Shown: positions 50,167-60,569 of the stretch, in pieces
Numbering within the stretch: position 1 is the stretch's first letter
Layout of the letters: each line of letters starts with the position of its first letter
Source of the DNA: Halobacterium hubeiense
GTDB taxonomy: Archaea > Halobacteriota > Halobacteria > Halobacteriales > Halobacteriaceae
Direction of reading: 5' to 3'
NCBI RefSeq assembly: GCF_001488575.1
Contig: NZ_LN831305.1
Span: 48,460-112,459 of the forward strand
DNA: 64,000 bases
Notes under the pieces: model-generated
The model's database searches: none
The model's input: the letters and a program-made list of their open reading frames with translations, nothing else
What the model was told of the DNA's origin: nothing
Program-made: the position numbers and the translations under genes

Positions 50167-50727
50167 ATGAGCACTCTGGCGGACACGATCCATATCGAGA
50201 ACGTCGTTGCCTCCAGCGATATCGGCCAAGAACTCGCCCTCGACCAACTCTCCACAGACCTTCCCGGCGCCGAGTACAACCCCGAGGACTTTCCTGGAAT
50301 CGTCTACCGCCTCCAGGAGCCCAAGTCAGCCACGCTGATTTTCCGCTCGGGCAAAGTCGTCTGCACCGGCGCGAAAAGCGTCGATGACGTTCACGAAGCT
50401 CTCGAGATCGTGTTTGAGGACATCCGCGAGTTAGGCATCGATGTCGACAGTAATCCGCCGATTGAGGTGCAGAATATTGTCTCCAGCGCGAGTCTCGAGC
50501 AATCGCTGAACTTGAACGCAATCGCAATCGGGCTGGGATTAGAGCAAATTGAGTACGAACCCGAGCAGTTCCCTGGCCTCGTCTACCGACTTGACGACCC
50601 CGACGTCGTCGTTCTCCTCTTCGGCAGTGGGAAACTCGTGATTACCGGTGCAAATGAATCTGAGGACGCACAGTCCGCACTGAAACACGTCGAAGACCGC
50701 CTCACTGAACTCGGCCTGCTTGAGTGA
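50167..50727 (+). CDS. tbp: TATA-box binding protein (TBP)
   Basis: 186 residues with the two TBP repeats: first HIENVVASSDIGQELALDQL ... FPGIVYRLQEPKSATLIF..GKVVCTGAKS, second VQNIVSSASLEQSLNLNAIA ... FPGLVYRLDDPDVVVLLF..GKLVITGAN. Full length with acidic tail. A second TBP on a plasmid, along with TFB at 10.6 kb, lets the replicon use its own TBP-TFB pair. AT-rich TATTTAAG lies upstream of the start. Confidence 0.96.
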   Translation: MSTLADTIHIENVVASSDIGQELALDQLSTDLPGAEYNPEDFPGIVYRLQEPKSATLIFRSGKVVCTGAKSVDDVHEALEIVFEDIRELGIDVDSNPPIEVQNIVSSASLEQSLNLNAIAIGLGLEQIEYEPEQFPGLVYRLDDPDVVVLLFGSGKLVITGANESEDAQSALKHVEDRLTELGLLE

Positions 50728-50816: not shown

Positions 50817-51098
50817 TTACTCGGTGAAGTCGACGTACTGGGTTTCCCAGTCGCGACGTGCAGTAATCTCGCGGCGGCCACGCCGGGTGAGCGTATAGGA
50901 GTTTGTGCGCTTGTCGAGTTTGCCCTTCTCGAGGAGGCCTTTGTCGACGAGGTCGTCGAGGTTCGGATAGAGCCGGCCGTGATTGATTTCTTGTTCGTAG
51001 TAGTCGTCGAGTTCATCCTTGACTGCGAGCCCATGCGGTTGCTCAAGCCCAGCAATTACATACAAGATGTCCCGCTGGAATCCAGTTAAATCATGCAT
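50817..51098 (-). CDS. PadR-family transcriptional regulator
   Basis: Start MHDLTGFQRDILYVIAG at 51098 is the standard haloarchaeal PadR opening. 93 residues: HGLAVKDELDDYYEQEINHG, RLYPNLDDLVDKGLLEKG, wing SYTLTRRGRREI. The region upstream holds the symmetric TTAACCAACA quartet, a candidate operator. Confidence 0.9.
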   Translation of the reverse strand: MHDLTGFQRDILYVIAGLEQPHGLAVKDELDDYYEQEINHGRLYPNLDDLVDKGLLEKGKLDKRTNSYTLTRRGRREITARRDWETQYVDFTE

Positions 51099-51255: not shown

Positions 51256-51491
51256 TTAACCAACATTCCACTGGAAAGCGCTATTCTGTTGGTTAACAGT
51301 AATCGCTCTTATGTAGAAACACGGAAAGAGGCCGTCTACGTGTACTGGCTTCACGCTGCGCGACTTAGTTAGCGTTCAAATCGCCAGAAGATAGCAGAAT
51401 TAGTTCCTGTCAGACCGTCTTTCCACAGCTCTACATAAGAGCGCTCCGTCTTAACCAACACGACAGAGATGGGGTGTGGTCTGTTGGTTAA
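51256..51491. repeat. Symmetric quartet of TTAACCAACA sites with 50-bp inverted arms
   Basis: TTAACCAACA at 51256 and 51451 and its inverse TGTTGGTTAA at 51287 and 51482 are arranged symmetrically about 51373.5. The inner arms 51287-51337 and 51411-51460 also pair in CGCTCTTATGTAGA, GGAAAGA and GTCT. Lies between padR and the 51699 gene. Could be a centromere, origin or operator. Confidence 0.75.
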
Positions 51492-57388: not shown

Positions 57389-57718
57389 CTACTCGCCGGC
57401 TTCGACTGGGGACTTGTACTTAGATTTGACCTGATCGCCGGCCCGCCACTGATAGTAGTAGTAGCGGTTGTTGTTGATCTCCTTGATGACGACGCTGGCT
57501 TTCGCAGGAACATCGACAGGGCGGTCGTTATCCTCCTGGCTGTCCTCACGCACGACATCTTCTTTGTCCATCTCAGCAGCTGCCTGTGCTGCTTTCCAGT
57601 CGGCCAGATCCTCAGCGTGCTCAGCGATCTGGCGAAGCGTCTCGGGACCCTGGCGATCGAGGCCATCGAGGATGTACTGGGCGATGTTGTCCGGTGGATT
57701 GGGGCGTGTGTGGGCCAT
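57389..57718 (-). CDS. DUF6788-like DNA-binding-type protein
   Basis: Start MAHTRPNPPDNIAQYILDGL at 57718. 109 residues: helical HTH-like PETLRQIAEHAEDLADWKAA, then an acidic linker and NRYYYYQWRAGDQVKSKY, a beta hairpin seen in DUF6788. The first TTAACCAACA site lies 5 bp from the start, so the gene is probably controlled through this motif and its product could be the binder. Confidence 0.7.
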   Translation of the reverse strand: MAHTRPNPPDNIAQYILDGLDRQGPETLRQIAEHAEDLADWKAAQAAAEMDKEDVVREDSQEDNDRPVDVPAKASVVIKEINNNRYYYYQWRAGDQVKSKYKSPVEAGE

Positions 57719-57722
57719 CGTC

Positions 57723-57911
57723 TTAACCAACATTAGGATGACTAGGTCGTAATAGTGTTGGTTAAGACTGCCGAGAAAGAGAAACTACTGCAGGCGTTTC
57801 ACAGAGGATACACCGAACGTGGACGAGTAGCCGTCACCGGGCGGTGTCTGGATGATCGACGCGCCAACCTTAACCAACACTTTGCACGTATCGGTTCAGA
57901 TTGTTGGTTAA
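57723..57911. repeat. Second symmetric quartet of TTAACCAACA sites
   Basis: TTAACCAACA at 57723 and 57870, TGTTGGTTAA at 57756 and 57902, symmetric about 57817. The first pair is a perfect 13-bp inverted repeat (GTCTTAACCAACA). Lies between the DUF6788-like gene and the AbrB gene. Start-to-start spacings within pairs are 33 and 32 bp. Nothing else is seen in 57912-58175 besides the AbrB promoter. Confidence 0.75.
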
Positions 57912-59115: not shown

Positions 59116-59577
59116 TCAATCAAGTTCTCCGTAGCCGTCTTCCTGCATCAACTCGGCGACGAGTTCCGGCCGCTCATGAGCGAGCACCAGAGCATACTCT
59201 CGTGCGTCCGTTTTCGCCACGTCGGTCGTCCCCAGCTCTTCCGCGAGGTTATTGAGGAACTCGGTCTCGGTGTCTGCAACATCGTCGCGAACATGGATTT
59301 CCAGTCGCGTGTCGCGCTCATCGCCGACGTTACTCCGCCGCACGAAGTAAGGGTATGTCGGTGACTCTTCGGTCGAATCACTCTCAGTTTCAGACGATGC
59401 GTCTGTCACGCTACCAGTGTTGTCGGAGTCGCTGGAGCCGGTCGAAGTCGTGTCGGCGTCCTGTTCGGGGGTGGCTGTGGGGGCTTCTCCGGACTGACTC
59501 TTGGCATCGGTTTCCTCGTTGCTCTCAGAGTCATCCTCGAAGCTCAGGTCACCAGAGCCCTTCTTCATGCCTCCCAT
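59116..59577 (-). CDS. ParA partner protein with disordered N half
   Basis: 153 residues. The first 75 are a disordered acidic/Ser/Thr tract. The rest is compact: YPYFVRRSNVGDERDTRLEIHV and ADTETEFLNNLAEEL then DAREYALVLAHERPELVAEL, possibly a ribbon-helix-helix-like or small alpha/beta unit. The start overlaps the parA stop (TAATG), so it is the likely adaptor that links ParA to the centromere, as small ParB-like partners do. Confidence 0.7.
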   Translation of the reverse strand: MGGMKKGSGDLSFEDDSESNEETDAKSQSGEAPTATPEQDADTTSTGSSDSDNTGSVTDASSETESDSTEESPTYPYFVRRSNVGDERDTRLEIHVRDDVADTETEFLNNLAEELGTTDVAKTDAREYALVLAHERPELVAELMQEDGYGELD

Positions 59578-60569
59578 TAGTTAGTCACCTCAGGTTCGTT
59601 TCCGAGTGCTGGCTCAAGTGTTACGTCCTCGTGGTCAGTGATATTCAACAGCAGTTCCTCATCGAAGTCCTCGTCGAAGGTTTCGGTCGCGATGAAGGCC
59701 GCTAGAGTCCACAGTTTCTCGAGTGTTTCCAGCTCCCGGTCGGAGACGCGACGCGGCCCCGGCTCGGAAACCATCTCGCCGTTGACTTCGTGGGTTTTCC
59801 AGCGCTCTTCGACGACCTTGAACGCAGACCCACGCGCTTCCCACATTTCATCCATCATGCTTTCGCGGTCACCGATTGAGACGGGCGTCGCGAACTCCTC
59901 TGTGGCGTCGAATTTGCGCTGGTACTGCTGGTGGGCGTTCGTTTGTCCTACGCCACTCGGCACGACGCAAGAAAGTCCGACCTGAATGTCGAGCTTCTCC
60001 TCCATTCCAGTGACCAGTTGTTCGAGGCCGTCGAGGCTCAAATTCCCCTTTCCGGCTGGCTTGACAGGCGCAACGAGTGTTCGGAGGGCGAAAATTGAGT
60101 TATACAGCAGGTCTTCTGCCCTAGCATTTGGGTCGATCAGAACAGCGTCGTACTCGTTCTGCAGTTGTTCTTCCTTCCAGAGGAGGTCGTGGAGGAGTTC
60201 AAACCGGGGGTAGTCTTCTCTGTCCATGCTCTCCATCTGTGCCTCGTAGGTGATTTTCTGCTCGAGATTGCTGGTAAAATCACCAAGCATGTCGTGACTT
60301 GGAACGATGTCTACGCCCTCGCTGCTGGTCTCGATGAGATCTCCAAATTCACCCTTTGGCCGTTCGAGGATGTGTCGGACGATGTTGTCGGCGTCTGGGT
60401 CGCTGCGATGTTCACCGACATCGAAGAGGGTCGTCAGGTTCCCTTCTTGTGGGTCCAGGTCGATGACAAGCGTGTCTAGGCCCGCGCGTTGGAATGCAAC
60501 CGCGAGGTTACCGGTTGTTGTGGTTTTGAACGTCCCTCCGGATTCGGAGTAGACGACTGCGGATAGCAT
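59577..60569 (-). CDS. parA: ParA/Soj-type partition ATPase with variant Walker A
   Basis: 330 residues: deviant Walker A ESGGTFKTTTT (residues 9-19), switch LVIDLDPQEGNLT, Walker B-like AVLIDPNA, and VAPVKPAGKGNLSLDGL. In usual ParA the sequence is KGGxGKT; here the signature Lys is Ser10 and one Gly is Phe14, a variation typical of some haloarchaeal plasmid Soj proteins. It positions plasmid copies by binding DNA non-specifically and responding to its partner. Thirteen-bp repeats upstream (60590-60775) are the probable centromere. Confidence 0.9.
   Translation of the reverse strand: MLSAVVYSESGGTFKTTTTGNLAVAFQRAGLDTLVIDLDPQEGNLTTLFDVGEHRSDPDADNIVRHILERPKGEFGDLIETSSEGVDIVPSHDMLGDFTSNLEQKITYEAQMESMDREDYPRFELLHDLLWKEEQLQNEYDAVLIDPNARAEDLLYNSIFALRTLVAPVKPAGKGNLSLDGLEQLVTGMEEKLDIQVGLSCVVPSGVGQTNAHQQYQRKFDATEEFATPVSIGDRESMMDEMWEARGSAFKVVEERWKTHEVNGEMVSEPGPRRVSDRELETLEKLWTLAAFIATETFDEDFDEELLLNITDHEDVTLEPALGNEPEVTN

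Follow-up and report, generated by a model that had tools for sequence, protein, structure and literature searches.

The window, by which we mean the whole stretch of 64,000 nucleotides analysed here, is the end of a 112-kb contig of Halobacterium hubeiense that is likely a plasmid, because H. noricense and H. salinarum have plasmid records that match the region around its padR gene. This PadR-family regulator gene (50817 to 51098, minus strand) adjoins a TATA-binding protein gene (50167-50727) on one side, and the same pair of genes is found on H. salinarum pNRC100 and on an H. noricense plasmid. On its other side, 157 bp upstream of the padR start, it adjoins a first palindrome of the form TTAACCAACA-N21-TGTTGGTTAA (51256 to 51296). 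There follow a 7-bp gap, CAGTAAT (51297 to 51303), a 140-bp MITE (51304 to 51443), a second 7-bp gap, CTCCGTC (51444 to 51450), and a second palindrome, again TTAACCAACA-N21-TGTTGGTTAA (51451 to 51491). The left gap, together with the A that precedes it, is where an 8-bp target duplication would be expected; the right gap differs from it, and no intact target duplication is present. The MITE is bounded by terminal inverted repeats, CGCTCTTATGTAGAAACACGGAAAGA on the left (51304 to 51329, plus strand) and CGCTCTTATGTAGAGCTGTGGAAAGA on the right (51418 to 51443, read on the minus strand). A second pair of palindromes, missed in the original prediction, lies 6.2 kb further on. Palindrome 3 (57723-57765, N23) stands 4 bp upstream of the ATG of a gene for a small protein of 109 aa with DUF6788-labelled relatives (57389-57718, minus strand), which we propose as the palindrome binder, with palindrome 3 as its putative auto-operator. 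Palindrome 4 (57870-57911, N22) precedes by 264 bp a gene judged AbrB-like by eye. Near this pair, at 59116-60569, are a ParA-like gene (by eye) and a small acidic partner gene, and the arrangement in locus L084 is similar.

The original prediction described four sites in exact mirror symmetry with long inverted inner arms. The four sites are exact copies of TTAACCAACA and lie at 51256-51265 (+), 51287-51296 (-), 51451-51460 (+) and 51482-51491 (-), both pairs have a 21-bp spacer, and the mirror symmetry is borne out, with the centre at 51373.5 common to the four sites and the inner element. When up to one mismatch was allowed, TTAACCAACA had eight matches in the window, all of them exact, against 1.9 expected, and none of 100 shuffles reached eight. 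The inner arms do pair, but the claimed extent of about 50 bp is too long: good pairing is confined to the outer 26 bp, of which 21 are paired, including 14 bp of perfect complementarity (CGCTCTTATGTAGA / TCTACATAAGAGCG). None of 2000 mononucleotide-shuffled versions of the 154-bp insert had an inverted repeat of 14 bp. That the four sites are symmetric is in itself no evidence of anything, since a pair of equal palindromes always mirrors itself about its midpoint. The feature to be explained is the position of the inner element, which shares this centre and keeps 7 bp from each palindrome; two equal palindromes, each at 7 bp from an end of the MITE, produce the mirror symmetry of the structure.

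The palindrome is a dispersed site with a fixed spacing. With spacers of 15-30 bp allowed, the genome of the window (3.13 Mb, four contigs) contains 30 exact copies, 26 of them outside the window, and the reversed control none. The 2.51-Mb contig carries seven copies, and the three smaller contigs (349,522, 157,757 and 112,459 bp) together carry 23, which corresponds to about 2.8 versus 37 per Mb. The spacer is 21 bp in 15 copies, 22 bp in 12, 23 bp in two and 17 bp in one, so that 27 of 30 have 21 or 22 bp and 29 of 30 have 21-23 bp, as for a protein that would sit on one face of the DNA. As 60 of the 67 half-sites in this genome fall in palindromes and the control is empty, the concern that the pattern might occur at random, without conserved spacing, does not hold. 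In a search of the class with spacers of 20-24 bp, the palindrome was present in 258 of 391 genomes (a raw count that ignores kinship; control 0), and 144 of 172 distinct sites with spacers in this range had 21 or 22 bp. The sites share their arms and, more weakly, an A/T centre and an outer GAC, while the spacer sequence is free. At least 119 stretches in public genomes match the palindrome, and the 80 listed matches carry 78 haloarchaeal names, one uncultured archaeon and one bacterium, Candidatus Tritonobacter lacicola. In the MAG of the latter, the only bacterial title among the 80, the palindrome occurs twice, 38 bp apart (L322, 5870-5909 and 5948-5987). Viral contigs contribute another 50 matching stretches.

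The inner element has relatives as well. Blocks similar to 51304-51443 are found on haloarchaeal plasmids, namely of Halorubrum sp. BOL3-1 (80%) and Halorussus pelagicus (79%), and at seven places in Halorubrum ezzemoulense (69%), where ends of the MITE kind flank a gene annotated as IS1595 transposase. The ends of the window MITE match the ends flanking an IS1595 transposase gene in L184 at 96% (left end, over 25 bp) and 92%. A complete element of 1046 bp in L217 encodes a 325-aa transposase (L217:1021-1998:-) of the DDE ISXO2/IS1595 type, which scores 27.5 bits for DDE_Tnp_IS1595 (PF12762; cut-off 27) and 19.8 bits, below the cut-off of 25.4, for Zn_ribbon_IS1595. The window MITE itself has no transposase, and shares with the element its terminal inverted repeats, all 14 terminal bp of which pair between the two MITE ends. 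Elements of the IS1595 family generate 8-bp target duplications, and duplications identical in all eight letters were found in L191, L192, L195-L198, L200, L202, L214, L216 and L217; the window copy has differing octamers instead. The suggestion that the structure comprises the ends of a small mobile element is thus correct for the inner arms, the terminal inverted repeats of an IS1595-type MITE of 140 bp. It does not extend to the four TTAACCAACA sites, which we rejected as parts of a mobile element; they are two copies of the dispersed palindrome that adjoin it.

The distance between element and palindrome is nearly invariant. A search of 371 genomes for TGTTGGTTAA, followed by a gap of 0-30 bp and the element end CGCTCWYATGTAGA, returned 39 junctions in 24 genomes (control 0), and all gaps were 6-8 bp long: 7 bp in 34 cases, 6 bp in four and 8 bp in one. 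Of the 39, 14 had a partner end and a target duplication in which at least seven letters agreed, ten had a candidate partner end that gave no duplication of this quality, and 15 had no partner end within the stretch examined. The 8-of-8 duplications consist of the last A of the site and the next 7 bp, and complete cases with a 7-bp gap start at the last base of the site. The junction search demanded a half-site, whereas a second sample took every end in 194 genomes regardless of any palindrome. It yielded 47 ends, a few of which may be chance, judging by four in the reversed control. Eight two-ended elements had identical octamers, seven of them with an exact half-site at 7 bp and the eighth (L242) with a half-site with three mismatches. 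Among five two-ended elements with unequal octamers, that of the window had half-sites on both sides and another had a half-site with one mismatch on one side; three of the 13 two-ended elements, all with unequal octamers, had no half-site. Of 27 unpaired ends, nine had an exact half-site at 7 bp and 18 did not. Some IS1595-type elements therefore stand away from a palindrome.

The element may find its target in one of two ways. It is a serious possibility, though one that we lean away from, that the IS1595-type transposase itself reads TGTTGGTTAA, so that targeting would need no bound protein. The near-rigid distance between element and site would fit this idea, as would the six of 39 junctions in which no exact partner arm stands at the usual distance. 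The presence of the exact TGTTGGTTAA word is no evidence for it, since the word was part of the search pattern. The other 33 junctions are full palindromes, which speaks against such direct reading; as 60 of 67 half-sites in the window's own genome are in palindromes anyway, this argument is not decisive. Guidance by a protein bound to the palindrome, the other candidate, presupposes that there is such a protein, and the genomic setting of the sites is consistent with one.

Based on our own crude gene calls, 28 of 29 sites in the window's genome and 88 of 88 from other genomes are intergenic, compared with 41% and 42% of random positions; in viral contigs, 39 of 47 sites are intergenic (random positions, 20%) and eight of 47 were called as not intergenic. 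Convergent gene pairs around the sites are few (0 of 27 in the own genome, 10 of 74 in other genomes, 9 of 45 in viral contigs). The palindrome thus lies where operators lie, between genes and upstream of gene starts. Downstream of 174 sites, 117 proteins start within 300 bp; the DUF6788-type family, with 20 members, forms the largest group among them, and next come six AAA proteins, of which five are encoded on viral contigs and look Orc1/Cdc6-like by eye. In viral contigs L024, L031, L050, L062 and L065, the palindrome is found 58-86 bp upstream of genes that look Orc1/Cdc6-like. Several gene families keep a constant distance to the site (51-52, 83-84 or 147-148 bp). Overall, distances from site to gene start are broad, with medians of 157, 147 and 108 bp, unlike the geometry of one simple repressor. 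The earlier remark that a simple operator would not need such a structure is half right: each pair of sites looks like an operator, and the quartet would be two operators that flank a MITE.

The family itself came into view through the sites. Four of the 30 sites of the genome precede, by 4-14 bp, the ATG of a gene for a small protein (100-109 aa), one of these genes being that of the window at 57389-57718, and a genome search finds just these four family genes, all with a site at this distance. A profile built from the four, which had been picked for adjoining a site, has matches in 317 of 391 class genomes and in 1942 proteins of a large database clustered at 90% identity. Each of the 30 loci that match best in the genomes has the palindrome 12-14 bp ahead of the ATG (29 exact, L109 with one mismatch). 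As the profile derives from site-adjoining genes and the 30 best loci are close relatives, these are not 30 independent cases. The same loci (L091-L120) have a second, larger inverted repeat (GTAACA..CGAAACTT-TATATAAA-AAGTTTCG..TGTTAC) about 30-80 bp upstream of the palindrome, which by eye surrounds a TATA-like box of the family genes. In two loci, L249 and L186, the start codon of a family gene is immediately preceded by an IS end, and the palindrome stands at the other end of the IS, so that the transposon separates the regulator gene from its operator. An IS end is found upstream of a family start codon in L204, L219 and L222 as well.

Assignment of these proteins to a known class is incomplete. 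All 120 listed relatives carry the precomputed label PF20586/DUF6788, which is found on none of the 120 listed relatives of a divergent clade, clade B. An hmmscan of the window protein, its three siblings and P0002 gave no PF20586 match, and Pfam and NCBIfam scans of the window protein returned no convincing family. An AlphaFold model of a family protein (pLDDT 74.9, pTM 0.40) shows one short helix, one long helix and three strands at the C-terminus, and the predicted fold has no significant match in the PDB. We would guess from this model that the C-terminal strands may bind DNA.

The divergent members provide a more telling indication that protein and palindrome belong together. Clade B, recognizable by the C-terminus W..NEYI.P, has a correspondingly changed palindrome, GTTACCCCACA-N-TGTGGGGTAAC, directly before the ATG, and in other divergent members the arms are of an intermediate kind (CCTAACCCACA, CTAACCAACA); proteins that stop short of the last conserved strand have no palindrome upstream. 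When loci were fetched by protein alone and counted without regard to kinship, clades set by C-terminal words and operators accepted with up to three mismatches, clade A had 39 palindromes of the A type and four without a palindrome, clade B nine of the B type and one without, and the types were never crossed. A palindrome was found at none of 20 loci of clade D, which has a short C-terminus, and members outside these clades had one A-type palindrome and three without. Three genomes (G368, G226 and G232) hold both clades A and B, and each gene has its own palindrome type. The B palindrome is dispersed, too, with copies in 22 of 391 genomes (control 0), and 11 of 22 examined copies were not called beside a clade-B gene (L151, with an uncertain start, is a possible exception). 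Judging by sequence, each palindrome type thus seems to have its own set of sites. No IS end of the kind described here stood beside a clade-B half-site in the 22 genomes, counted whether or not they hold the IS, which fits specificity for the A site.

Presence of the family and of the A palindrome also coincide. Ignoring kinship, of the 210 genomes in which the family scores a strong hit (E <= 1e-30), 207 have the palindrome, compared with 51 of the 181 others; in the genus of the window, the numbers are nine of nine and none of four. The 51 genomes indicate that there is another binder or that relic sites exist. Together with the 26 of 30 own sites that do not adjoin a family gene, they would be in line with a different, more widespread haloarchaeal regulator as the binder, DUF6788-type genes being only its most constant targets. 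We regard this as unlikely, given that clades A and B use different palindromes without crossing, even inside the three genomes that hold both, and that clade-B palindromes, like those of clade A, also occur away from their genes. The data rather point to the family proteins as probable autoregulated DNA binders with further sites.

The original prediction had also offered a centromere, a replication origin or a termination site, none of which finds support. A plasmid centromere (par site) forms one cluster per replicon beside the par operon. The ParA-like gene seen by eye at 59577-60569 is 1.7 kb from the palindrome at 57870-57911, and another site is about 0.6 kb from a ParA-like operon in L084, so that a partition centromere or origin has something in its favour. 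It is nevertheless very improbable, because the 30 sites are spread over all four contigs, including that of 2.5 Mb, and are mostly single, nearly always intergenic and upstream of many unrelated genes, and because the insert between the two window palindromes is a MITE.

The four-site form of the window is likely a recombinant. The octamers that flank the MITE differ (ACAGTAAT on the left, CTCCGTCT on the right), so a plain insertion does not account for it. On the padR side, H. noricense matches at 96% as far as 4 bp past palindrome 1, where the alignment stops. H. noricense also has an end of the same kind of MITE about 5 kb away, 7 bp from another palindrome. This stop just outside a palindrome, and the position of some sites directly after stop codons, might suggest that the palindromes are site-specific recombination sites for the exchange of gene cassettes, the least probable of the explanations considered, as inspection by eye of the recurrent groups among the 117 downstream proteins brought up no obvious recombinase, several gene families keep the constant site distances given above, and the target duplications show DDE-type insertion outside the palindrome. 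Contig C3 of G302 has two IS1595-type copies beside palindromes (L218 and L219, at about 15.9 and 244.9 kb) with their octamers exchanged (ATACGAGA/ATGCTGAG), a mark of recombination between copies. A search by exact ends found only one such MITE left in the genome of the window.

Together, our data suggest a model in which targeted transposition and recombination produce the structure. We consider it probable that the window contains two copies of a dispersed palindrome, likely an operator of the DUF6788-type family, 7 bp either side of an IS1595-type MITE of a kind that would reach such sites by targeted transposition. Family proteins would bind the palindrome as a symmetric oligomer, with the arms three helical turns apart on one face of the DNA. 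Binding, which we infer both for the operator of their own gene and for the dispersed sites, would allow them to repress their own genes and to act at other sites, 23 of 30 of which are on the three smaller contigs. The IS1595-type transposase would then be guided to the outer edge of the site, either by the bound protein or by the half-site itself. Finally, two MITE copies, each beside its own palindrome, may have recombined to give the arrangement palindrome-MITE-palindrome, a step suggested by the mismatch between the two flanking octamers of the window.

We put forward a broader proposal only tentatively and with considerable doubt: DUF6788-type proteins may be a new class of archaeal sequence-specific DNA-binding regulators with clade-specific palindromic codes, whose networks are concentrated on plasmids and also reach viral contigs, and their DNA-bound form may serve as a beacon for an IS1595-type transposon, which would be the first protein-guided site-hunting transposon in archaea. 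If this were true, a family of 1942 database members (clustered at 90% identity) would gain a function, and genes of haloarchaeal plasmids, chromosomes and viruses, including Orc1/Cdc6-like ones, would be under the control of autoregulating DNA binders with a readable code. Archaea would gain an example of natural, base-precise targeted transposition by a simple 1-kb element. The model would also explain the origin of inversions and of symmetric four-site structures like that of the window, and it suggests a targeting tool for haloarchaeal genetics.

Among the entries listed, our literature searches found no account of the palindrome, of DUF6788 by name, or of an IS1595 element that targets the palindrome. 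Autoregulated repressors with dispersed operators have an operator beside the regulator's own gene and further sites elsewhere. The family described here resembles them in having a site beside its own gene and further sites, and differs from them in that no known DNA-binding domain was found, that the arms are 31-32 bp apart from centre to centre, and that the sites in this genome cluster on the smaller contigs.

Insertion directed to the flank of protein-binding sites is already known from work on Tn5053, promoter-targeting Mutator-like elements and REP-targeting IS elements. According to PMC1525189, IS elements insert into REP palindromes, and the haloarchaeal case is similar in that dispersed extragenic palindromes serve as IS targets. 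Compared with that account, our palindrome has fixed arms and a free spacer, the insertion takes place 7 bp outside of it, and it is tied to the start codon of a protein family. For the TnGBS / ISLre2 / ISKra4 group, PMC3942029 reports that TnGBS inserts 15-17 bp upstream of sigma-A promoters; as described there, the group has Mutator-like transposases and targets bacterial promoters, whereas here an IS1595-type element inserts 6-8 bp away from a palindrome. A close parallel is provided by the res-site hunters Tn5053/Tn402, which, according to PMC7765201, prefer a short protein-binding site of another replicon and insert at a set place beside it, with participation of the target-site resolvase in transposition. 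The present element would likewise be a transposon that prefers a short site and inserts at a set place beside it, in which the bound protein may take part. The machinery is different: as presented in that source, Tn5053/Tn402 use TniABQ, generate 5-bp direct repeats and target bacterial resolvase res sites. Here, we find 8-bp duplications rather than 5-bp repeats, a single IS1595-type transposase, present as a long gene in L217, and a haloarchaeal palindrome linked to the DUF6788-type family.
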